Origin: Streptomyces roseirectus
Lineage (GTDB): Bacteria; Actinomycetota; Actinomycetes; Streptomycetales; Streptomycetaceae
Reading direction: 5' to 3'
NCBI RefSeq assembly: GCF_014489635.1
Contig: NZ_CP060828.1
Span: 3,262,001-3,326,000 of the forward strand
DNA length: 64,000 bases
Shown: positions 23,935 to 33,563 of the stretch, piece after piece
Layout: each line of letters begins with the position of its first letter
Position numbering within the stretch: the first letter of the stretch is position 1
Program-made: the position numbers and the translations under genes
The notes under the pieces: generated by a model
Database searches by the model: none
Seen by the model: the letters and a program-made list of their open reading frames with translations, nothing else
What the model was told of the DNA's origin: nothing

Positions 23935-25476
23935 ATGGCGAAACGTTCCGTCGTGATGGTCTCCGTCTCCGCTGCCGTGCTGCTGTCGTCGCTGGCGACG
24001 GGATGCGGGGGCGGTTCCGGGGAGGAGGAGCCGGCGGGGCAGAAGCTGGGGTGGAAGGAGTGTCCGGCGCCGTCGGAGGCGGAGGGCGGCGGGAGCGCGC
24101 CGTCGCCGTTGCCGAACGACGGGACATGGCAGTGCGCGACGATGAAGGCGCCCCTGGACTGGTCGAAGCCCGACGGGGACACGATCGGCATCGCGTTGAT
24201 CCGCGCGCGGGCGAGCGGTGACGAGGGGAAGCGGATCGGGTCCCTGGTGTTCAACTTCGGCGGCCCCGGCGGCTCGGGCGTCACCGCCCTGCCGTCGTTC
24301 GGCGCGGACTACGAGAAGCTGCGCACCCGGTACGACCTGGTCAGCTTCGACCCGCGCGGGGTGGGCCGCAGCGCCGGGGTGAGGTGCGAGAACGACCAGC
24401 AACTGGACGCGTACTTCCAGCAGGACACGACCCCGGACGACGCGACGGAGCGCGCGGCGCTGCTGGCGAACACCAGGGAGTTCAACGCGGCCTGCGCGAA
24501 GAACTCCGGGAAGACGCTGCCGTACGTGCGCACCACCGACGCGGCCCGGGACATGGACCTGATGCGGCAGGTCCTGGGCGACGACAAGCTGTACTACTTC
24601 GGCATCTCCTACAGCACCGAACTGGGCGGCGTGTACGCGCACCTGTTCCCGAAGAACGTGGGCCGCGCTGTCTTCGACGCGGTCGTCGACCCGACGCAGA
24701 CGTCCGAACAGGGCTCCCTGGGCCAGGCGAAGGGCTTCCAGCTCGCCCTGGACAACTACGCCGACAACTGCGTCTCCCAGACGGAGGACTGCCCCGTCGG
24801 AGACAGCGCGCGGGACGTGAAGGACCGGATCACAAAGCTCCTGAAGGACCTGGACGCGAAGCCGCTGCCGGGCAGTTTCCCGCGCGTGCTGACGCAGACC
24901 GCCGCGACCAACGGCATCGCGCAGGCGCTGTACTCGAAGGACTTCTGGGAGTACCTGACGGAGGGCCTGGAGCAGGCGTACGACGGCGACGGCAGGACAC
25001 TGATGCTGCTGTCCGACCTGATGAACGGCCGCAGCGCGAACGGCGAGTACAGCAACATGGCCGCCGCCAACACGGCCGTCAACTGCGCCGACGACAAGCC
25101 CCGCTACACCCCGGCCGACGTCGAGCGCAGGCTCCCGGAGTTCCGCGCCGCCTCTCCCGTCTTCGGGGACTTCCTCGCCTGGGGCATGGTCAGCTGCACC
25201 GGCTGGGCCGTCCCCGGCGCCGCCGACCACCCCGACGTGCGCGCGCCCGATGCGGCCCCGATCCTCGTCGTCGGCAACACCGGCGACCCGGCGACGCCGT
25301 ACGAGGGAGCCCACAGGATGGCGGAGGCGCTGGGCGAGGGCGTCGGGGTCGAGCTGACGTACAAGGGCCAGGGCCACGGCGCCTACGACAGCAAGGACAA
25401 GTGCGTGCAGGAAGCGGTGAACGGCTACCTGCTGGACGGGAAGGCGCCGGCGACCAAAACCGTCTGCCCCCGCTGA
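23935..25476 (+). CDS. S33 alpha/beta-hydrolase lipoprotein, TAP/SlpE type, with GxSxS elbow
   Basis: A signal peptide ends in the lipobox 'LATGC', so the 513-aa product is an exported lipoprotein. Family motifs: 'VFNFGGPGGSG', 'DLVSFDPRGVGRS', nucleophile elbow 'YFGISYSTELGG' (S225), acid 'VVGNTGDPATPYEGA', His 'QGHGAY'. Tripeptidyl aminopeptidase-like enzymes remove short peptides from exported proteins. The elbow is unusual: residue 227 is Ser instead of the Gly that completes GxSxG, which its tandem neighbour retains. The ATG after AGGATGGGGCG was preferred. It is the first of two tandem paralogues. Confidence 0.92.
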   Translation: MAKRSVVMVSVSAAVLLSSLATGCGGGSGEEEPAGQKLGWKECPAPSEAEGGGSAPSPLPNDGTWQCATMKAPLDWSKPDGDTIGIALIRARASGDEGKRIGSLVFNFGGPGGSGVTALPSFGADYEKLRTRYDLVSFDPRGVGRSAGVRCENDQQLDAYFQQDTTPDDATERAALLANTREFNAACAKNSGKTLPYVRTTDAARDMDLMRQVLGDDKLYYFGISYSTELGGVYAHLFPKNVGRAVFDAVVDPTQTSEQGSLGQAKGFQLALDNYADNCVSQTEDCPVGDSARDVKDRITKLLKDLDAKPLPGSFPRVLTQTAATNGIAQALYSKDFWEYLTEGLEQAYDGDGRTLMLLSDLMNGRSANGEYSNMAAANTAVNCADDKPRYTPADVERRLPEFRAASPVFGDFLAWGMVSCTGWAVPGAADHPDVRAPDAAPILVVGNTGDPATPYEGAHRMAEALGEGVGVELTYKGQGHGAYDSKDKCVQEAVNGYLLDGKAPATKTVCPR

Positions 25477-25493
25477 AACCGCTGGTCACAGGG

Positions 25494-25502
25494 TTATCCA
25501 CA
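25494..25502 (+). promoter_or_regulatory. Candidate DnaA box TTATCCACA
   Basis: An exact TTATCCACA lies in the 113-bp gap between the two tandem S33 peptidase genes, about 88 bp upstream of the second. It is the third DnaA-box-like intergenic site in the window. Confidence 0.35.
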
Positions 25503-25589
25503 GGCCCTCACGGGGTTCTTCCCCGCCACCTACCATGGCCTGACAGCCGTTCGACGCACGGTGCGGACGGCAGGGACGGGGGGTGCGCG

Positions 25590-27092
25590 ATGGCGCGATT
25601 CGTACGGTGGGCCGCGTGGGGAGCGGTCGTGGCGCTGGTGGTGGCGGGGTGCTCTTCGGGGTCGTCGAAGGGCGGTTCGGACGGCGGCGGGAAGGCCGCC
25701 GGGCAGTCGCTGACGGACCAGAAGCTCGACTGGAAGCGCTGCGCGGGAGGTTCGGCGCCGGGGGCCGTGTGGCAGTGCGCGACGATGAAGGCGCCGCTGG
25801 ACTGGTCGAAGCCCGAGGGGCGGACGATCGATGTGGGGCTCGTGCGCGCCAGATCGAGCGGGGCGGCGAGCGAGCGGATCGGGTCGCTGCTGTTCAACTT
25901 CGGCGGTCCGGGCGCCTCCGGCGTCGACACCTTGCCGTCGTTCGGCTCCACGATGGCCTCGCTGCGCGAGCGCTACGACCTGGTGAGTTTCGATCCGCGC
26001 GGGGTCGGCCGCAGCGAAGGCGTGCGCTGCCGGAGCGACCGGGAGATCGCCGCCGCCGAGACCGTGGACTCCACTCCGGACACCCCTCAGGAGGAGCGGG
26101 CGTACTTCCAGGACGCCGCCGGTTTCGGCCGGGGCTGCGCGAAAGCGGCCGGTGACCTGTTGTCCCACGTGTCGACGACCGACACGGCCCGCGACATGGA
26201 CCTGATGCGCCAGGTGCTGGGCGACACGAAGACGCACTACTTCGGCATCTCGTACGGCACCGAACTGGGCGGCGTCTACGCCCACCTGTTCCCGGGGAAC
26301 GTGGGGCGGCTGGTCCTGGACGCGGTGGTGGACCCGACCGCCGACGCGGTGGGCCACGCCCGCAACCAGGCGCGGGGCTTCCAACTGGCGCTCGACAACT
26401 ACCTGAGGTCGACCGGCCAGGACCCGGAGGCGGGCACCCGGAGGATCGCGGACCTGCTGGCGCGCCTGGACGCGGACGCGCTGCCGGCGTCGTCCGGCCG
26501 CAGGCTCACGCAGACGCTCGCGGTCACCGGCATCGTCACGCCGCTCTACAGCGAGTCGAGCTGGCCGAGCCTCACCCGCGCCCTGGAGGAGGCCGAGGGC
26601 GGCGACGGCTCGGGGCTGCTGGCGCTGGCCGACGCCTACAACGAGCGTGACTCCTCGGGGCGTTACGGCACGACGACGCACTCCCAGCGGGTCATATCGT
26701 GCCTGGACGACAAGCAGCGCCCGACGGCGGACGAGATCCGCGAGACGCTTCCGGAGTTCGAGCGGATCTCCCCGGTCTTCGGCCCCTACCTCGCCTGGGA
26801 CACGGCCGGCTGGTGCCACGACTGGCCCGTGTCCGGCCAGCACGACACTCCGGAGGTGAGCGCCCCGGGGGCGGCCCCGATCCTGCTGGTCGGCAACACG
26901 GGCGACCCGGCGACGCCGTACGAGGGCGCGCGCAGGATGGCCGACGAGCTGGGCAAGGGCGTCGGGGTGCTCCTCACGTGGCGGGGCGAGGGCCATGGCG
27001 CGTACGGCAGCGGCAGCGACTGCGTCGACTCGGTGGTGGACGCCTACCTGCTGGACGGCACGGTCCCGGACGACGGAAAGGTCTGCTCATGA
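25590..27092 (+). CDS. S33 alpha/beta-hydrolase lipoprotein, TAP/SlpE type (500 aa)
   Basis: This is a paralogue of the preceding gene. The signal peptide ends in the lipobox 'LVVAGC', followed by a Ser/Gly-rich tether. It has 'LFNFGGPGASG', 'DLVSFDPRGVGRS', the canonical elbow 'YFGISYGTELGG' (S221, G223), 'LVGNTGDPATPYEGA' and 'RGEGHGAYG'. Paired Cys near the C-terminus ('GSDCVDSV', 'KVCS') suggest disulfides outside the cell. It is expected to act at the cell surface in peptide or propeptide trimming. It ends at a very strong bidirectional terminator shared with moeZ. Confidence 0.94.
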   Translation: MARFVRWAAWGAVVALVVAGCSSGSSKGGSDGGGKAAGQSLTDQKLDWKRCAGGSAPGAVWQCATMKAPLDWSKPEGRTIDVGLVRARSSGAASERIGSLLFNFGGPGASGVDTLPSFGSTMASLRERYDLVSFDPRGVGRSEGVRCRSDREIAAAETVDSTPDTPQEERAYFQDAAGFGRGCAKAAGDLLSHVSTTDTARDMDLMRQVLGDTKTHYFGISYGTELGGVYAHLFPGNVGRLVLDAVVDPTADAVGHARNQARGFQLALDNYLRSTGQDPEAGTRRIADLLARLDADALPASSGRRLTQTLAVTGIVTPLYSESSWPSLTRALEEAEGGDGSGLLALADAYNERDSSGRYGTTTHSQRVISCLDDKQRPTADEIRETLPEFERISPVFGPYLAWDTAGWCHDWPVSGQHDTPEVSAPGAAPILLVGNTGDPATPYEGARRMADELGKGVGVLLTWRGEGHGAYGSGSDCVDSVVDAYLLDGTVPDDGKVCS

Positions 27093-27151: not shown

Positions 27152-28330
27152 TCAGTAGACCGGCTTGTCCGGTTCGATCTGGTTGACCCAGCCGATGACG
27201 CCGCCGCCGACGTGGACGGCGTCGGAGAAGCCCGCGGACTTCAGGACGGCGAGGACTTCCGCACTGCGGACACCCGTCTTGCAATGCAGGACGATCTTCT
27301 TGTCCTGGGGCAGGGACTCCAGGGCGGTGCCGAGCAGGAACTCGTTCTTCGGGATCAGCTTGGCGCCCGGGATGGAGACGATCTCGTACTCGTTCTGCTC
27401 GCGGACGTCGATGATCTCGATGTTCTCGCCGTCGTCGATCCACTCCTTGAGCTGCTTCGCGGTGATCGTCGAGCCGAGGGCGGCCTCCTGGGCCTCCTCG
27501 GAGACGACACCGCAGAACGCCTCGTAGTCGATGAGCTCGGTGACCGTCGGGTTCTCGCCGCACACCGCGCAGTTCGGGTCCTTGCGGACCTTGACCTGGC
27601 GGTACTGCATCTCCAGGGCGTCGTAGATCATCAGGCGGCCGACCAGGGGCTCACCGGTGCCGGTGAGGACCTTGATGGCCTCGGTGACCTGGATGGAGCC
27701 GATGGACGCGCACAGCACGCCCAGGACGCCGCCCTCGGCGCAGGAGGGGACCATGCCGGGGGGCGGGGGCTCCGGGTAGAGGCAGCGGTAGCAGGGGCCG
27801 TGCTCGGACCAGAAGACCGACGCCTGGCCGTCGAAGCGGTAGATGGAGCCCCACACGTACGGCTTGTTGAGCAGCACGCACGCGTCGTTGACCAGGTAGC
27901 GGGTCGCGAAGTTGTCGGTGCCGTCGACGATCAGGTCGTACTGGCTGAAGATGTCCATCACGTTCTCGGCTTCGAGCCGTTCCTCGTGCAGGATCACGTT
28001 CACGTACGGGTTGATGCCGAGGACGGAGTCGCGCGCGGACTCGGCCTTGGAGCGGCCGATGTCGGCCTGGCTGTGGATGATCTGCCGCTGGAGGTTGGAC
28101 TCGTCGACCTCGTCGAACTCCACGATGCCCAGGGTACCGACGCCGGCCGCGGCCAGGTACATCAGCGCCGGCGAGCCCAGGCCGCCGGCGCCGACACAGA
28201 GCACCTTCGCGTTCTTCAGCCGCTTCTGCCCGGCCATGCCCACGTCGGGGATGATCAGGTGGCGGGAGTACCTGCGGACCTCGTCTACGGTGAGCTCGGC
28301 AGCCGGCTCGACCAGGGGTGGCAGCGACAC
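27152..28330 (-). CDS. moeZ: Adenylyltransferase/sulfurtransferase MoeZ
   Basis: The 392-aa protein has an E1-like adenylation domain ('VGAGGLGSPALMYLAAAGVG', 'DEVDESNLQRQIIH', 'DGTDNFATRYLVND', zinc cysteines 'CYRC' and 'CAVCG') followed by a rhodanese domain whose catalytic loop is 'HCKTGVRS'. MoeZ activates C-terminal Gly-Gly sulfur carrier proteins and turns them into thiocarboxylates for molybdopterin, cysteine and thio-containing natural products. The GTG start follows GGAG by five bases. It stands at the junction between core genes and the exopolysaccharide-type operon. Confidence 0.96.
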   Translation of the reverse strand: MSLPPLVEPAAELTVDEVRRYSRHLIIPDVGMAGQKRLKNAKVLCVGAGGLGSPALMYLAAAGVGTLGIVEFDEVDESNLQRQIIHSQADIGRSKAESARDSVLGINPYVNVILHEERLEAENVMDIFSQYDLIVDGTDNFATRYLVNDACVLLNKPYVWGSIYRFDGQASVFWSEHGPCYRCLYPEPPPPGMVPSCAEGGVLGVLCASIGSIQVTEAIKVLTGTGEPLVGRLMIYDALEMQYRQVKVRKDPNCAVCGENPTVTELIDYEAFCGVVSEEAQEAALGSTITAKQLKEWIDDGENIEIIDVREQNEYEIVSIPGAKLIPKNEFLLGTALESLPQDKKIVLHCKTGVRSAEVLAVLKSAGFSDAVHVGGGVIGWVNQIEPDKPVY

Positions 28331-28393: not shown

Positions 28394-29128
28394 TCATTCC
28401 GAGACACCCGTTCCGATCCGCGAGACGATCTCGTCCCAGTAGCCGGGCAGGGTCGCCCAGGGGTCGTCCAGGCCCCCGCGCGCGGAACGGTCGGTGAACC
28501 AGATGGTCGCCGCGCCCTGCCAGCGGGCGATGCGCAGGGCCTCCTCCAGGTGCGTGCGGGGCACTCCGTGCACGAAGTGGCAGAAGCGCTCCGCGGGATG
28601 CTCCGCCGTCCACTCCGCCACCTGCGACCAGCGGTAGTCGCTCCAGGAGCCGCGGAAGGTCACCAACTGGTCGCCGTGTTCGGCGTATCCGGGGTGCGGG
28701 TGGGTGCCGTGGCCGAGGACCAGGTGGGCGTCGTCGGCGAACTCCCGCAGGGCGTCGGCCGTGCGCCCCGTGGCGGCGAGTCCGGCGCGTTCGGCGGGGC
28801 AGCGGTCCAGGAGGAAGCCGTCGACCCGGTACCAGCTCGCGTAGCGGCCCGCGTCGTCCAGGAGTTCGCCCCGCGCGCGTGCGCCGTGCGCGGCGTCGAG
28901 CCGGCCCAGGACGCGTACGCCCGCGTTGCGCAGCCGTCCGGCGGCCTCCAGACAGTGCGGGTCGGGGCGGACACCGGGGCCGTCGGAGACGTCCAGGACG
29001 GCCCAGTGCAACGGCGTGCCCGGGCGGGCGAGTTCGCCCCACTCGCCCGGGGCCAGCAGCGGGTGCGCGAACCCGGGGACGCCGAAGCCGGTGCGTACCC
29101 CGGTGCTCGCCCCGGTCACATGCGGCAC
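28394..29128 (-). CDS. Spherulin-4-type putative glycoside hydrolase (244 aa)
   Basis: The sequence 'GFGVPGFAHPLLAPGEWGEL', 'LHWAVLDVSDGPGVRPDPH', 'LGRLDAAHGARARGELLDD' and 'YRVDGFLLDRCP' is that of the spherulation-specific family 4 fold, a TIM-barrel related to galactosaminidase domains such as the hydrolase part of PelA. There is no signal peptide, so in this form it is intracellular, which is unusual for such enzymes. The GTG start follows GGAGG and overlaps the epimerase stop by 13 bp, making it the last gene of a fully overlapping operon. An exopolysaccharide-trimming or quality-control role is inferred. Confidence 0.82.
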   Translation of the reverse strand: MPHVTGASTGVRTGFGVPGFAHPLLAPGEWGELARPGTPLHWAVLDVSDGPGVRPDPHCLEAAGRLRNAGVRVLGRLDAAHGARARGELLDDAGRYASWYRVDGFLLDRCPAERAGLAATGRTADALREFADDAHLVLGHGTHPHPGYAEHGDQLVTFRGSWSDYRWSQVAEWTAEHPAERFCHFVHGVPRTHLEEALRIARWQGAATIWFTDRSARGGLDDPWATLPGYWDEIVSRIGTGVSE

Positions 29129-30075
29129 GCCGCCTCCATCCAGATGTCCGCCAGGGACTCCTCCAGGTTGATCCGGGGCCGCCAGCCGAGCCGGTCGCGC
29201 GCGGTGCGCACGTCGGCCTGCTGCCAGCTCCCGCAGCCGTCCGGGTACGGGTACGCGACGGGCGCCGCGTGGTCGTGCTCGTGCCGGGGGTGGCCGATGG
29301 CCGCCCGCATCGGCCCCGGGGGGACGTCGAGTTCGTGCAGCGCGCCCGCGTACCCGGCCACGCGCGCGAGGGTCGCGGCGGCGTCCCGCAGGCGCACCGC
29401 GCGGCCCGAGCCGATGTTGATGACGCCCTGGGCGGCCGACAGCGCGGCGGCGTGCACCGCGCGGGCGACGTCCCGGACGTCGACGAAGTCGCGCTGCGCG
29501 CCGAGCCCCGCGAGCTTCAGCTCGCCGTCGCCGGCCTGCATCGCGCGGCGCATGGCCTCCGCGAGGCGGCCCAGCGGGCTGCCCGCCGGGGTGCCGGGGC
29601 CGGCCGGGGAGAACACCCGCAGCACGACCGCGTCCAGGCCGGAGCCGAGGACGAGTTCCGTCGCGGCGAGCTTGCTGACGCCGTACGGGCCGCCGGGGCG
29701 CGGGACGGCGTCCTCGGCCGTCGAGGAGCCCGGCTGGCTCGGGCCGTACTCGGCGCCGCAGCCGATCTGCACCAGGCGCGCGCCGCAGCCGCTGCGCCGC
29801 AGCGCCTCGCAGACCGTGGCGACGGCGACCGTGTTGTGCCGGATCAGGTCCTTCGCGCCGCCGCGCGTGGCGCCGGCGCAGTTGATGACGACCTGCGGGT
29901 GGACCGCGTCCAGGAAGCGCGTCAGCGCCCCCGGGCTGCCGGTCGCGAGGTCGAACCGGACGTCGGCGTCGTCGCCCCGCCCGAGCGCGGTGAGCTGGGC
30001 CGCCGGGTCGGCGAGCAGGCGGTCGGCGACGAACCGGCCGAGGTATCCGTTGGCTCCGATCAGCAGAACCCTCAT
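29116..30075 (-). CDS. NAD(P)-dependent sugar epimerase/dehydratase (extended SDR)
   Basis: The 319-aa protein has a Rossmann motif 'LLIGANGYLGRF' and the catalytic Y-x3-K in 'GGPYGVSKLAATE', with the usual 'VVINCAGATRGG' strand. It should interconvert or modify a nucleotide sugar. The ATG start overlaps the stop of an upstream 20-codon ORF (ATGA) and is preceded by a GGGGGGCGGCG run. Longer in-frame extension to 30357 has no family similarity and crosses two other small ORFs. In the operon it would feed the GT4 glycosyltransferase. Exact substrate cannot be read from sequence. Confidence 0.9.
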   Translation of the reverse strand: MRVLLIGANGYLGRFVADRLLADPAAQLTALGRGDDADVRFDLATGSPGALTRFLDAVHPQVVINCAGATRGGAKDLIRHNTVAVATVCEALRRSGCGARLVQIGCGAEYGPSQPGSSTAEDAVPRPGGPYGVSKLAATELVLGSGLDAVVLRVFSPAGPGTPAGSPLGRLAEAMRRAMQAGDGELKLAGLGAQRDFVDVRDVARAVHAAALSAAQGVINIGSGRAVRLRDAAATLARVAGYAGALHELDVPPGPMRAAIGHPRHEHDHAAPVAYPYPDGCGSWQQADVRTARDRLGWRPRINLEESLADIWMEAACRM

Positions 30076-30134
30076 CGCGCCGCCCCCCGCATGTGAAGGG
30101 CGCCGCGGGTCGCTCCGGGTCGAGGCGTGGTCAT
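30072..30134 (-). CDS. 20-codon mini-ORF coupled to the epimerase gene
   Basis: An ATG with a strong AAGGAG seven bases upstream opens a 20-codon frame starting 'MTTPRPGATRGALHM'. Its ATG overlaps the stop of the preceding 128-codon ORF (ATGA) and its own TGA overlaps the ATG of the epimerase (ATGA). It is too short for a domain. The likeliest role is as a translational coupler or leader for the epimerase, though a bioactive peptide cannot be excluded. Confidence 0.5.
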   Translation of the reverse strand: MTTPRPGATRGALHMRGAAR

Positions 30135-30517
30135 CTGGTCTCTCCTTCAGGGGTGGTGCGGTTGCCCGCGACGGGGTGCTGCGACGCGCTCGCCGCGCGC
30201 GTGGGGGACGGCCGGCGGGGGCCGTACGCGAGGGCGGCGCGCCGCCCGGCCGCCAGGACACGGCCGACACCGGCGCGGCCGTACGAGGGGCTGGGGTGCC
30301 CGTGCGGAGGGCGGGGAAGTGTCTTCCGCCCGGTGGCGCGGACGGGGCCGTGCGCAACGCCGGGGCGGGGTGCGGCCGGCAGCGCGGGGCGCGCGTACGG
30401 CCGACGGGTCGGTGCGGGTGCGCGGTCCGCGCGGGCGGGTGCCGGGGCTCCGCCGGGGATCGCCGCGCGGCACGCGTGCGTGCGGGTGGCCGGTGTGTTC
30501 GGGCGGGCGCTCAGCAC
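30131..30517 (-). CDS. Arg/Pro/His/Ala-rich hypothetical protein (128 aa)
   Basis: A GTG with AGAGGA six bases upstream overlaps the stop of the membrane-protein gene (GTGCTGA). The frame runs 128 codons and ends overlapping the next ATG. Third-position G+C is about 90%, but positions 1 and 2 are also very GC-rich, so codon bias does not prove coding. Composition is extreme: Arg, Pro, Ala and His dominate, with almost no acidic residues and no predicted fold. The evidence for translation is the good ribosome site and the overlap at both ends. It may be a basic disordered protein or a decayed gene kept for coupling. Confidence 0.5.
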   Translation of the reverse strand: MLSARPNTPATRTHACRAAIPGGAPAPARADRAPAPTRRPYARPALPAAPRPGVAHGPVRATGRKTLPRPPHGHPSPSYGRAGVGRVLAAGRRAALAYGPRRPSPTRAASASQHPVAGNRTTPEGETR

Positions 30518-31791
30518 CGGTGGTCCTCTCGCGCGTGGGCCGACGCTTTGGTGAGGGTCCGGGCCGCGTGGGCGAGGAGGGTGAGGGCGGCGGCGCCCGC
30601 GGCGAGGGCGGGGAGCGCGGCGGGGCCCCAGGCGCTCACCAGGGCGTCGGCCGGGGCGGACAGGGCACCGCAGCCGGGGAGGCGGCCCGCGAGGACGGTG
30701 GCCGGGGCGAGGGCTTCGACGGCGGCTGCGGCGGACAGGACGACCGCGGGGGCGTGGGTGAAGCCGTGGACGGTGAGGAGGCGGGCGAGGAACAGCAGCA
30801 GGCCGAGAGGGAGCACGCGTGCGTACGCGGCGGGTTCGCCCAGGACCACGCCGCACAGCGCCGTCAGGCCCGCGAGCGCGGCGGTGAACAGCGCGACCGT
30901 GCCCAGGAGGAGTGGCCGGACGGCCCGGGCGAACTCCGCCAGCCCCCGGCTGACGTGCAGCCTGCGGCCCGCGTGGACGGCGAGGAGGTGCGCGCAGACC
31001 GCGGCGGGCGCGCAGGCGAGGGCCAGGGTCAGCAAGGGCGCGGCGGTGAGCGGCCAGGGGGCGTCCGGCGTGAGGCCGGGCGGTCTGTCGGGGCCTCCGG
31101 CGACGGCGCCCGCGAGGAGTCCGTCGCCGACGGCGGCGTACAGCAGGAGCCAGCAGGTCGCCGAGACGGCGCGGTGCGGGACCGGGCGGGGCCGGCGCAG
31201 CGGGCTCAGCGGGCCGTGGCGCAGGACGGCGCGCACCGCGACGGCGACGGCGAGGACGCCCGCGCCGAGGACGGCCTGCCGTCCGGTGCCGTGGGTGAGG
31301 CGCAGCCCGGCGACCGTCGCGGCGCACAGGGCGCCGGGGAGGAGGCTCAGCAGCACCCACGCCGGGCGGACGGAGGAGGCCGGGCGCTCGGCAGGCGCCT
31401 GCCCCGGCGTCGCCTCCTGCCTCGGTACACGCGCGTACATCTCCTCAGCGAGCGAGAAGACGTCCCGGTGGCGGTACTGCGCGGCGGCCCGGTCGGTGAG
31501 CCCGTGGGCCTCCAGACCGGCCGCGATCTCCAGGGGGTCCACGGCCCGTTCGCACAGTTCGCGGTGGCGGTGCATCAGGGCCTTCACCGGGTCGACGCCA
31601 CCGCGCCGGGGCCCTGTGACGGCGTCCTGGGACTCCGCACGCTCCGTACGGGCCGCACGATCCGTGCCGTCGGCGTGTTCCGTGCCGTCGGTGTGCTCCG
31701 CCGCGGCCGTACCCGGCCGTGTGATCCACTCAGGCGGCACCCACTCCCCCGCCGGCGCACCGGGTCGGTCGAGCCCTTCCAGCCCGCTCAC
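30511..31791 (-). CDS. Polytopic membrane protein of the glycosyltransferase operon (426 aa)
   Basis: Residues 1-140 are cytosolic, with an Asp/Thr/Glu-rich stretch ('HTDGTEHADGTDRAA') and a helical part ('HRELCERAVDPLEIAAGLEA', 'HRDVFSLAEEMYARV'). About eight hydrophobic helices follow (near 143-163, 172-190, 209-231, 247-270, 293-319, 326-342, 345-370, 386-410). GTG start overlaps the glycosyltransferase stop as GTGA. It is not recognisably PelG, but it sits where a transporter or polymer-export partner would be expected. I propose export or assembly of the glycan; family unknown to me. Confidence 0.8.
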   Translation of the reverse strand: MSGLEGLDRPGAPAGEWVPPEWITRPGTAAAEHTDGTEHADGTDRAARTERAESQDAVTGPRRGGVDPVKALMHRHRELCERAVDPLEIAAGLEAHGLTDRAAAQYRHRDVFSLAEEMYARVPRQEATPGQAPAERPASSVRPAWVLLSLLPGALCAATVAGLRLTHGTGRQAVLGAGVLAVAVAVRAVLRHGPLSPLRRPRPVPHRAVSATCWLLLYAAVGDGLLAGAVAGGPDRPPGLTPDAPWPLTAAPLLTLALACAPAAVCAHLLAVHAGRRLHVSRGLAEFARAVRPLLLGTVALFTAALAGLTALCGVVLGEPAAYARVLPLGLLLFLARLLTVHGFTHAPAVVLSAAAAVEALAPATVLAGRLPGCGALSAPADALVSAWGPAALPALAAGAAALTLLAHAARTLTKASAHAREDHRC

Positions 31792-33563
31792 CGGGCCACC
31801 TCCGCCACCGGAACCGAAGGCGCGCCCGCGCCTACCCCGACGGGCACCGAGTCGGCAGCCCATCCCGGCACCCGGCGCCCCGTCCACCGCCCCGCCAGAT
31901 GCGCCTCGGCGGGCATCCCGAACGGCAGCGGCTCGCCCTCCTCGTCGACCAGGACGCGCCGGACGGGACACCGCGAGACGACGTCCAGGTAGATCGCGTC
32001 GAAGGAGGCGATGTTCTGTTCGGCCGTGAACAGTTCCAGCGCACGGGCGCGCGCCGCCGCTCCGAGGCGTGCACGGCGCTCGGGGTCGCGCAGGAGCGCG
32101 ACGCACGCCTCGGCGAGCGCCCTCGGGTTGCGCGGCGGCACGACGAGCCCGGTGCCGCCTATCGCCTCGACGACGGCGCCGACGTCGGTGGAGACGGTGG
32201 CGCGTCCGCAGAGCATGGCCTCGACGAGCCCGTCGGGAAACCCTTCGACGACGCTGGACAGGACGACGACCGCGCCTGCCGCGTACGCGTCGGCGGCGCC
32301 CGGGAGTTCGGGTCCGCCCAGTTCCTCGAAGGAGACCGGGTTGTCGCCGACGGCATAGGAGCCGGGGGCCTCGTCGGGGAAGAGCTGGGCGGCGAGCGCG
32401 CGGCAGTGGCCGAGGTAGGCCGCGCCCTCGGCGTCGGCGGGCGCGCCGACGACGCGCAGCCGGGTGCCGGGCTCCTGCCGGCGGACCTCGGCGAAGGCGT
32501 GCAGGAGGGCGACGAGGTCCTTGGCGGGCTCGATCCGGCCGACCCAGACGAGCGTGCGCGGATCGGCGCGGTCGGGGCCCTCGCCGACCTCGGCGAAGGG
32601 GGCGGCGTCCAGGCCGGGGTGGACGGTGCGCAGCTTGGCCGGCGCGGCGCCGCACCGCTCCTGCCAGCGGCGCGCGTGCGCGTTGCCGGGCGTGATCCGG
32701 GCGGCCCGCCGGTACACCTCGGTGGCCAGCCGCCCGTGGAAGGCCGCCAGGAGGGCGCGTACGGGCGTCGCGGCCCCACCCCCGCCGGCCCCACCCCCGC
32801 CAGGCACAGCCCCGCCCGGCACGCCGGCCTCGCTGTCCCCGGCGCCCTGACCGGCGCTCCCGGCCCCGCCCGCGCTCCCCGAGCTTTCGAGGTAGTGCGT
32901 ACGCAGCCGCACCCCGTACTCGGTGACCACGAGCGGCACCCCGAAGAAGTGCCGCGCGAGGAGCCCTGGAAGGGCCGCAGGGCCCCCGGAGGTGGCGTGG
33001 CACAGGTCCACCGCGCCGAGCGCGTGCTCCTCGTACCAGGGCAGCGACAGGGGGCGCAGGGCGCGCTCCAGGTGGTCCGCGACGGCGAGCAGTTCGGGGA
33101 CGCGCGCCTCGCGCGCCTCCGGCCGGGCTCCCGGCGCGCGACAGGCGCGTTCCAGGGCGCGCACGGCCCGCTCCGAGCGGAGCGCGCCGGCCAGTCCGCC
33201 GTCGTCGCGGGCGAGTTCGGCGAGGGAGTACAGCGCGTTGCCGAAACGGTCCGCCTCAGTGGTGGAGGGGGTCGCCGCGCAGAGGGTGGCGACCAGGTCG
33301 CCGTACGCCTGCGTGAAGCGCCCGCGGGCGCGGCGGCCGTGGACGACGCCGTCGTCCCGCGCGGGCTCCAGGGGGGCCGTACGGACGCCCACGACCTGCG
33401 GGGGGAGCGCGGCCCAGCCGGTGTCGTGCGGGCGGCCGGAGCGGCGCAGCGCGTAGACGTCGAACTCGTGCTGCCCGAGCCCGCGCACGAGCCGGTCGCA
33501 CCAGAGTCCGGCGTCACCGCTCACGTACGGATAGCCACCCTCCGTCAGCAGTCCGATGCGCAC
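31788..33563 (-). CDS. GT4 glycosyltransferase with DUF3492, PelF-like (591 aa)
   Basis: The N-terminus 'MRIGLLTEGGYPYVSGDAGL' is characteristic of the DUF3492 region of PelF-type GT4 enzymes (E-G-x-Y-P-[YF]-V). The C-terminal half is a GT-B donor domain with 'TLVWVGRIEPAKDLVALLHA' and the E-x7-E motif at E440/E448 ('EGFPDGLVE'), then 'VVPPRNPRALAEAC'. A Gly/Ala/Ser-rich insert interrupts the middle. PelF polymerises the Pel polysaccharide from a UDP-sugar. The GTG start has GGGGG seven bases upstream; it heads the six-ORF overlapping operon. Sugar donor and product are inference. Confidence 0.9.
   Translation of the reverse strand: MRIGLLTEGGYPYVSGDAGLWCDRLVRGLGQHEFDVYALRRSGRPHDTGWAALPPQVVGVRTAPLEPARDDGVVHGRRARGRFTQAYGDLVATLCAATPSTTEADRFGNALYSLAELARDDGGLAGALRSERAVRALERACRAPGARPEAREARVPELLAVADHLERALRPLSLPWYEEHALGAVDLCHATSGGPAALPGLLARHFFGVPLVVTEYGVRLRTHYLESSGSAGGAGSAGQGAGDSEAGVPGGAVPGGGGAGGGGAATPVRALLAAFHGRLATEVYRRAARITPGNAHARRWQERCGAAPAKLRTVHPGLDAAPFAEVGEGPDRADPRTLVWVGRIEPAKDLVALLHAFAEVRRQEPGTRLRVVGAPADAEGAAYLGHCRALAAQLFPDEAPGSYAVGDNPVSFEELGGPELPGAADAYAAGAVVVLSSVVEGFPDGLVEAMLCGRATVSTDVGAVVEAIGGTGLVVPPRNPRALAEACVALLRDPERRARLGAAARARALELFTAEQNIASFDAIYLDVVSRCPVRRVLVDEEGEPLPFGMPAEAHLAGRWTGRRVPGWAADSVPVGVGAGAPSVPVAEVAR

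Follow-up and report, generated by a model that had tools for sequence, protein, structure and literature searches.

A moeZ-linked relative of galactosaminogalactan-type clusters in Streptomyces, apparently eroded and carrying a spherulin-4 protein without its catalytic glutamate

Introduction

Does a gene cluster that resembles an exopolysaccharide system, and that lies next to moeZ in Streptomyces roseirectus, still make an exported polysaccharide? The cluster is contained in a 64-kb stretch (contig NZ_CP060828.1, positions 3,262,001 to 3,326,000; hereafter the window) of a 9.95-Mb single-contig genome. Its four supported genes, all on the minus strand, encode a glycosyltransferase (GT4), a membrane protein (MEM), an extended short-chain dehydrogenase (EPI) and a spherulin-4 protein (SPH), and are followed by moeZ. 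An initial annotation had proposed a six-gene, reduced and new variant of Pel synthesis with a hydrolase. We find that the cluster is indeed a reduced relative of galactosamine-polymer systems, but that the window SPH lacks the catalytic Glu of a working hydrolase, and an active exopolysaccharide system with such an enzyme is therefore doubtful. Gene losses, shortening of MEM, loss of the Glu, purifying selection and SPH positions specific to the moeZ-linked form are all seen by comparison. At a probability of about 0.57, we suggest from these sequence comparisons that a galactosaminogalactan (GAG)-type exopolysaccharide set was eroded near moeZ and then repurposed, and that the cluster would now be an envelope-glycan module with a pseudo-GH135 partner rather than an exporter of free exopolysaccharide. 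Below, type A denotes the moeZ-linked clusters, including that of the window, and types B and C denote paralogous GAG-type loci.

The spherulin-4 protein lacks the GH135 catalytic glutamate

SPH (28394..29128, minus strand; 244 aa, GH135-type, no evident signal peptide) matches Spherulin4 (PF12138) with 68.7 bits (cut-off 30.2). The window protein alone matched no PDB chain; when bacterial spherulins, those of types B/C among them, were combined into a profile, the solved Sph3 structure 5c5g was matched with 104 bits. The active site of Aspergillus clavatus Sph3 is given as Asp166, Glu167 and Glu222 (PMC10485009). The pair is printed as Asp196/Glu222 in another account (PMC12054363); the 56-residue Asp–Glu spacing in chain 5c5g fits 166/222. 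Counted from the ATG at 29119, SPH codon 105 (28805..28807, minus strand) is Asp, so that the equivalent of D166 is kept, and codon 156 (28652..28654, minus strand), the site of E222, is Arg.

Both acids are present in 85/85 type B/C SPH proteins. The Glu is lost in all 35 same-genus moeZ-linked proteins, which carry Ser (22), Ala (7), Arg (3, including the window), Cys (1), Thr (1) or Gln (1) at this site. Among distinct SPH sequences from the fetched loci, it is lost in 76 of 78 type A versus none of 101 type B/C; the type A proteins that keep it are those of loci L203 and L194 (L194 was also fetched as L190). Over the fetched loci the site carries Ser, Ala, Arg, Cys, Leu, Asp, Thr, Gln, Asn and His.

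Type A SPH might still be a glycosidase that acts on a different sugar by means of another acid, such as the type A-specific Asp 210. The conservation of this residue, the purifying selection on SPH (see below) and the retention of the Asp nucleophile equivalent in 28 of 35 same-genus type A proteins (3 have Ala, 3 Gly and 1 lies in a masked stretch) agree with such an enzyme. However, that Asp is itself lost in 6 of the 35, and the Glu site tolerates many residue types, as if unconstrained. We regard a relocated acid as very unlikely.

SPH probably acts inside the cell, since its N-terminus is not strongly hydrophobic; by a hydropathy test only, this holds for 82/82 type A and 100/105 type B/C records. 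Type B/C SPH proteins (for example L034:12883-13545 and L036:10337-10996) are mostly without an evident signal peptide, and the Agd3-like and GH114 proteins of L034, L036, L039 and L242 seem, by eye, to start with one. A GH135 protein that looks intracellular is puzzling inside a polymer-export cluster. At L039:6704-7528 (a Frankiaceae metagenome-assembled genome; also seen in L066), a second spherulin-4 protein with a secretion-type N-terminus and an intact Glu is encoded just upstream of a GAG-type cluster.

Complete GAG-type clusters and the descent of the moeZ-linked form

Full clusters of the order AGD3-GT4-MEM-(GALE-NTP-EPI)-SPH-GH114, where AGD3 is an Agd3-like deacetylase, occur in named members of Streptomyces, Kitasatospora and other genera. 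The named set comprises the best 80 loci among the matches listed and was sought through MEM, which is thus present by construction. Type B is defined by GALE plus EPI (32 of the best 80 loci: AGD3 in 31, GT4 31, GALE 32, NTP 32, EPI 32, SPH 29, GH114 28) and type C by a leucine aminopeptidase or cobS neighbour (45 of the 80: AGD3 44, GT4 45, SPH 43, GH114 37, aminopeptidase 44, cobS 34); the remaining 3 are neither. GH114 is clear (270.8–276.3 bits in three members). Against Pfam Agd3_CE (cut-off 27.6) two same-genus deacetylases score 18 and 20 bits and that of L041 scores 82.9, and the only PDB match of the deacetylase family profile at E 0.01 is Agd3 itself (6nwz, E 1.6e-12, N-terminal part). 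In type A, both GT4 and moeZ were called at 50 loci, and not one of these contains AGD3, GALE, NTP or GH114; no Agd3-like deacetylase is among the called genes of the window cluster either.

The type B trio (L034:10200-12886 and others) consists of a LegB-like 4,6-dehydratase, a sugar-1-phosphate nucleotidyltransferase and an EPI-type reductase. This set of enzymes points to a GAG-like polymer that contains a modified sugar, for example a 6-deoxy form. At L040:1267-4172 a GT4–epimerase pair adjoins a gene with SIS and glutamine amidotransferase domains (GlmS-like), as would fit an amino-sugar polymer.

One genome from another genus of the family (G074, loci L203/L233) has the complete order AGD3-GT4-MEM-GALE-NTP-EPI-SPH-GH114 with the SPH Glu intact, and moeZ follows 2.5 kb past GH114, with two opposite-strand genes in between. 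A 59-row tree of GT4 proteins places L203 as sister of the entire moeZ-linked group (SH-aLRT 99), and through this position, that of a single genome, type A shares descent with the bacterial agd3 operons. L194, a reduced cluster with the Glu kept, is next to branch (95), followed by the Glu-less remainder; the branch at the base of type A is long (0.79). In a 30-row tree one change of Glu state suffices. In the EPI tree L202, which has Asp at the Glu site, falls between L203 and L194; if this placement holds, at least two changes are therefore needed.

The reduced form is widespread in the genus. MEM was matched in 35 of 37 same-genus genomes, and SPH orthologues are present in 35 of 37, missing from G001 (79 percent complete) and G028. 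In G028 (locus L048) EPI and moeZ stay and SPH is internally deleted; its start codon, within the EPI overlap, and a C-terminal scrap are left at L048:7828-8085. The order GT4-MEM-EPI-SPH-moeZ recurs across loci, which bears out the earlier proposal that GT4, MEM and SPH belong side by side, and together these counts and the kept order argue that the cluster is real beyond chance. GT4 (E 1e-25) and MEM (E 1e-4) had no match in the 15 genomes of the same order that were tried.

Many of the same genomes hold second loci with GT4, MEM and SPH homologues. In S. roseirectus itself, SPH scores above the cut-off only in the window, and the single GH114 gene (L242:6834-7652, lipoprotein-like) lies ~3.5 Mb away from it, flanked by aminopeptidase-like and CobS-like genes (named by eye). 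As this is a type C site, GH114 may be all that is left of a former type C cluster.

The glycosyltransferase and its shortened membrane partner

GT4 (31788..33563, minus strand; 591 aa, DUF3492 plus Glycos_transf_1) scores 99.4 bits to Pfam DUF3492 and 100 bits to NCBIfam PelF, exactly at the cut-off of 100, a borderline score, and we describe it as PelF-like; three relatives from type B, type C or other loci score 166–173 bits to the same model. The window protein is 40–42 percent identical to nine same-genus paralogues (BLAST). R343, K348, E440 and E448, which we take to be active-site residues, are kept in 29, 29, 30 and 33 of 33 type A proteins, respectively, and all four in 89/89 of type B/C.

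MEM (30511..31791, minus strand; 426 aa) has no family match in profile scans. The full-length MEM of a relative was modelled at pLDDT 87.3 and has a MATE/WzxE/MurJ-like (MOP) fold. The window protein consists of an N-terminal helical domain (residues 68–121, 31429..31590, minus strand; pLDDT mostly > 90), which is kept across the types, and a shortened MOP-type part whose residues 250–415 (30547..31044, minus strand) form a C-lobe equivalent to transmembrane helices TM8–TM12 of the full-length form. Over the five N-domain helices 42 of 43 positions align with the full-length form; over the six N-lobe helices only 59 of 144 do, with none in TM4 and TM6. The window MEM thus does not have the complete two-lobe, 12-helix fold of a MOP exporter. 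PelG is of MOP type. At the sequence level we saw no relationship to PelG: MEM versus PelG gave an hhalign probability of 0.4 percent (a weak test, with a two-sequence PelG profile), and PF16933, the PelG family, has no match in the window's genome. At the level of fold, the earlier statement that no PelG is recognisable here needs qualifying, because the full-length relative is a MOP protein of which the window has a shortened form.

A live, reduced GAG/Pel-like system, close to what the initial annotation envisaged, would have GT4 polymerise GalNAc-type sugars and the eight-helix MEM export the product, with no need for deacetylation or trimming. The catalytic residues kept in most type A GT4 proteins speak for it, as do the genus-wide conservation, purifying selection on all four genes and the coupling of GT4 to MEM: the GT4 stop is written ATGA or GTGA, with a possible overlapping MEM start, in 41 of 50 loci. 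Yet MEM is without TM4, TM6 and much of the MOP N-lobe, SPH has lost its Glu, the deacetylase and GH114 are absent from the cluster in 50/50 loci, and EPI–SPH outlive GT4 and MEM in L202 and L210. A live exporting system therefore seems to us unlikely.

EPI and SPH are coupled and under purifying selection

EPI (29116..30075, minus strand; 319 aa, an NDP-sugar 4-epimerase or 4-ketoreductase) matches Pfam NAD epimerase with 129.5 bits, and the motif YGVSK is present in 34/34 type A proteins. The closest solved structure is a GDP-6-deoxy-lyxo-hexulose 4-reductase (139 bits), followed by other reductases and UDP-sugar 4-epimerases. The type B homologue, to which the window EPI is 42–49 percent identical (seven rows), adjoins the LegB-like 4,6-dehydratase (448 bits, just below the cut-off of 475) and the nucleotidyltransferase. 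On the strength of these structure matches and neighbours, EPI would handle a nucleotide sugar.

EPI and SPH overlap by 13 nt (29116..29128, minus strand), and the overlap holds the SPH start codon. A possible start codon at this position is found in 78/78 distinct type A EPI sequences versus 0/51 type B EPI records; the 78 include L203, L202, L210 and the SPH-deleted L048.

Selection was estimated as the median dN/dS over 14 close pairs per gene. EPI is the more constrained in type A (0.057 versus 0.319 in type B; moeZ, 0.082), and SPH has nearly the same value in type A as in type B/C (0.230 versus 0.222). At a conservation of ≥ 95 percent, type A SPH (79 records) has 57 columns, of which 17 are common to types B/C (105 more diverse records) and 40 are not.

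These data bear on the idea that the cluster is a relic in decay, with EPI as the one gene that still counts and GT4, MEM and SPH in the course of being lost. The low dN/dS of EPI against 0.271 for GT4 and 0.429 for MEM would suit a relic, as would the loss of GT4 and MEM in L202 and L210, the deletion of SPH in L048 and the long GT4 branch at the base of type A. But SPH is as constrained as its Glu-keeping homologues, it has the 40 type A-only columns, and the overlap start codon is invariant, and we find decay quite unlikely. The low dN/dS, type A-specific columns and fixed start codon instead make the Glu-less SPH and EPI look retained and refined, rather than merely decaying.

Gene calls and flanking genes

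The coordinates and overlaps of the six open reading frames (ORFs) first described are exact: GT4/MEM overlap by GTGA, MEM and a 128-codon ORF (30131..30517, minus strand) by GTGCTGA, this ORF and a 20-codon ORF (30072..30134, minus strand) by ATGA, and the latter and EPI by ATGA. Only four of the six are supported as genes. A codon model trained on the loci calls GT4, MEM, EPI, SPH and moeZ and neither small ORF. The 128-codon ORF has a codon score of -0.068 per codon versus +0.20 to +0.50 for its neighbours, a flat GC content by codon position (0.80/0.78/0.86) and, in a search of 241 fetched loci, no match at E 1e-3 beyond its own genome. It occupies a MEM-to-EPI gap whose length ranges between 46 and 729 nt in 33 orthologous loci, and the 20-codon ORF falls in the same unconserved gap. 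Among the 68 loci where both MEM and EPI were called, 2 have a small ORF called in this gap (L147:4321-4620 and L230:6061-6339; 99 or 92 codons), which counts against a mere spacer; they are unrelated to each other and to the 128-codon ORF. As neither ORF of the window is supported, we describe the cluster as four genes in two coupled pairs, GT4/MEM and EPI/SPH, separated by a spacer.

The cluster sits between an oligopeptide-type ABC transporter operon (read from translations) and moeZ (27152..28330, minus strand), a fixed downstream neighbour that we count as flank, outside the glycan module; of 83 loci, 38 have 63 nt between SPH and moeZ. Facing the cluster, at 23935-27092 of the window, are two related tandem genes for secreted alpha/beta-hydrolases (peptidase-like by eye), with at least one homologue in 17 of 18 type A loci compared.

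Discussion

Our preferred reading, an eroded and repurposed GAG-type set, would begin with a complete cluster near moeZ that eroded in place. GT4, held at the membrane by the N-domain and C-lobe of MEM, may still add hexosamine-type units, with nucleotide sugars supplied or interconverted by EPI. SPH would be a catalytically dead subunit that binds a glycan or a partner and whose synthesis is tied to that of EPI by the 13-nt overlap. The predicted product is a cell-bound envelope glycan or a small glycoconjugate, not a freely exported, deacetylated and hydrolase-trimmed polymer of the GAG or Pel kind.

Several observations weigh against this reading. GT4 and MEM are the less constrained genes, and 4 of 33 type A GT4 proteins lack the active-site Arg. 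L202 and L210 keep EPI-SPH-moeZ without GT4 and MEM (a scrap of GT4 remains in L210), which means that the four need not work as one unit in every genome, and SPH itself is internally deleted in one genome (L048). The complete cluster near moeZ is known from a single genome (L203/L233), where GH114 and the two opposite-strand genes separate SPH from moeZ, so that 'in place' is approximate. MEM may have retained transport activity, for instance as part of an oligomer, and the role of the missing acid might conceivably be taken by D210, an Asp whose conservation is confined to type A SPH.

We speculate further, and more doubtfully, that in Streptomyces and related genera a secreted-polysaccharide cluster has turned into an intracellular regulatory or biosynthetic unit, in which the pseudo-GH135 protein is the translationally coupled, dedicated partner of the epimerase/reductase and the pair can outlast polymerase and exporter. 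The role of the retained EPI–SPH unit is to us the most interesting point. SPH would be a conserved pseudo-glycosidase for which EPI is the obvious candidate partner. The loci give a stepwise record (a complete cluster near moeZ; a reduced one with the Glu kept; the Glu lost; EPI–SPH alone) of how, in one of the main antibiotic-producing genera, an exopolysaccharide operon may be dismantled and its remains put to another use. In practical terms, the labels 'spherulin-4 hydrolase' and 'PelF' at the moeZ locus should not be taken to mean that GAG or Pel is made, and type B/C clusters, in which the SPH catalytic residues are kept, are the candidate sources of galactosamine polymers in Streptomyces.

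Comparison with known polysaccharide systems

Pel is encoded by pelABCDEFG, with a Gram-positive form given as pelDEADAFG (PMC7112168). The window resembles it in its PelF-like GT4 and, through the full-length MEM relative, in a MOP-fold partner, but its MEM has no profile match to PelG. Neither PelD, PelE nor PelA was found among the five ORFs scanned, a search that did not extend to the neighbours and the rest of the genome. A new Pel variant is not what the comparison supports: the immediate relatives are operons of GAG type, which carry Agd3-like, SPH and GH114 genes.

Agd3, Sph3 and GH114 types are enzymes of the fungal GAG cluster (PMC4817252, PMC7229062). Of its five functions (uge3, gtb3, sph3, ega3, agd3), the window has counterparts of the glycosyltransferase, the epimerase-type enzyme and Sph3, whereas Agd3 and Ega3 are missing from the cluster. 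Fungal Sph3 is described as membrane-bound and as remodelling extracellular polymer (PMC12054363); the bacterial SPH, in contrast, has no evident signal peptide, and that of the window no Glu.

Bacterial operons that combine a glycosyltransferase with a multi-spanning membrane protein and GH114, and in some Actinobacteria also with spherulin-4, have already been reported (Bamford 2020, PMC7229062), and galactosamine-containing wall material and endogalactosaminidase activity have long been noted in Streptomyces (cited in PMC7229062). The kind is therefore known, and it is the moeZ-linked form that differs. With these agd3 operons, and especially with Streptomyces types B and C, the window shares the order of GT4, multi-spanning membrane protein and spherulin-4, and with type B also EPI. 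It differs in lacking an Agd3-like deacetylase, GH114, dehydratase and nucleotidyltransferase in the cluster, in the lost SPH Glu and shortened MEM, and in an EPI that is far more constrained. What appears to be new, beside the known GAG-type bacterial operons, is a genus-wide, moeZ-linked cluster of this type that seems to have been eroded and that retains a conserved, putative pseudo-GH135 protein.

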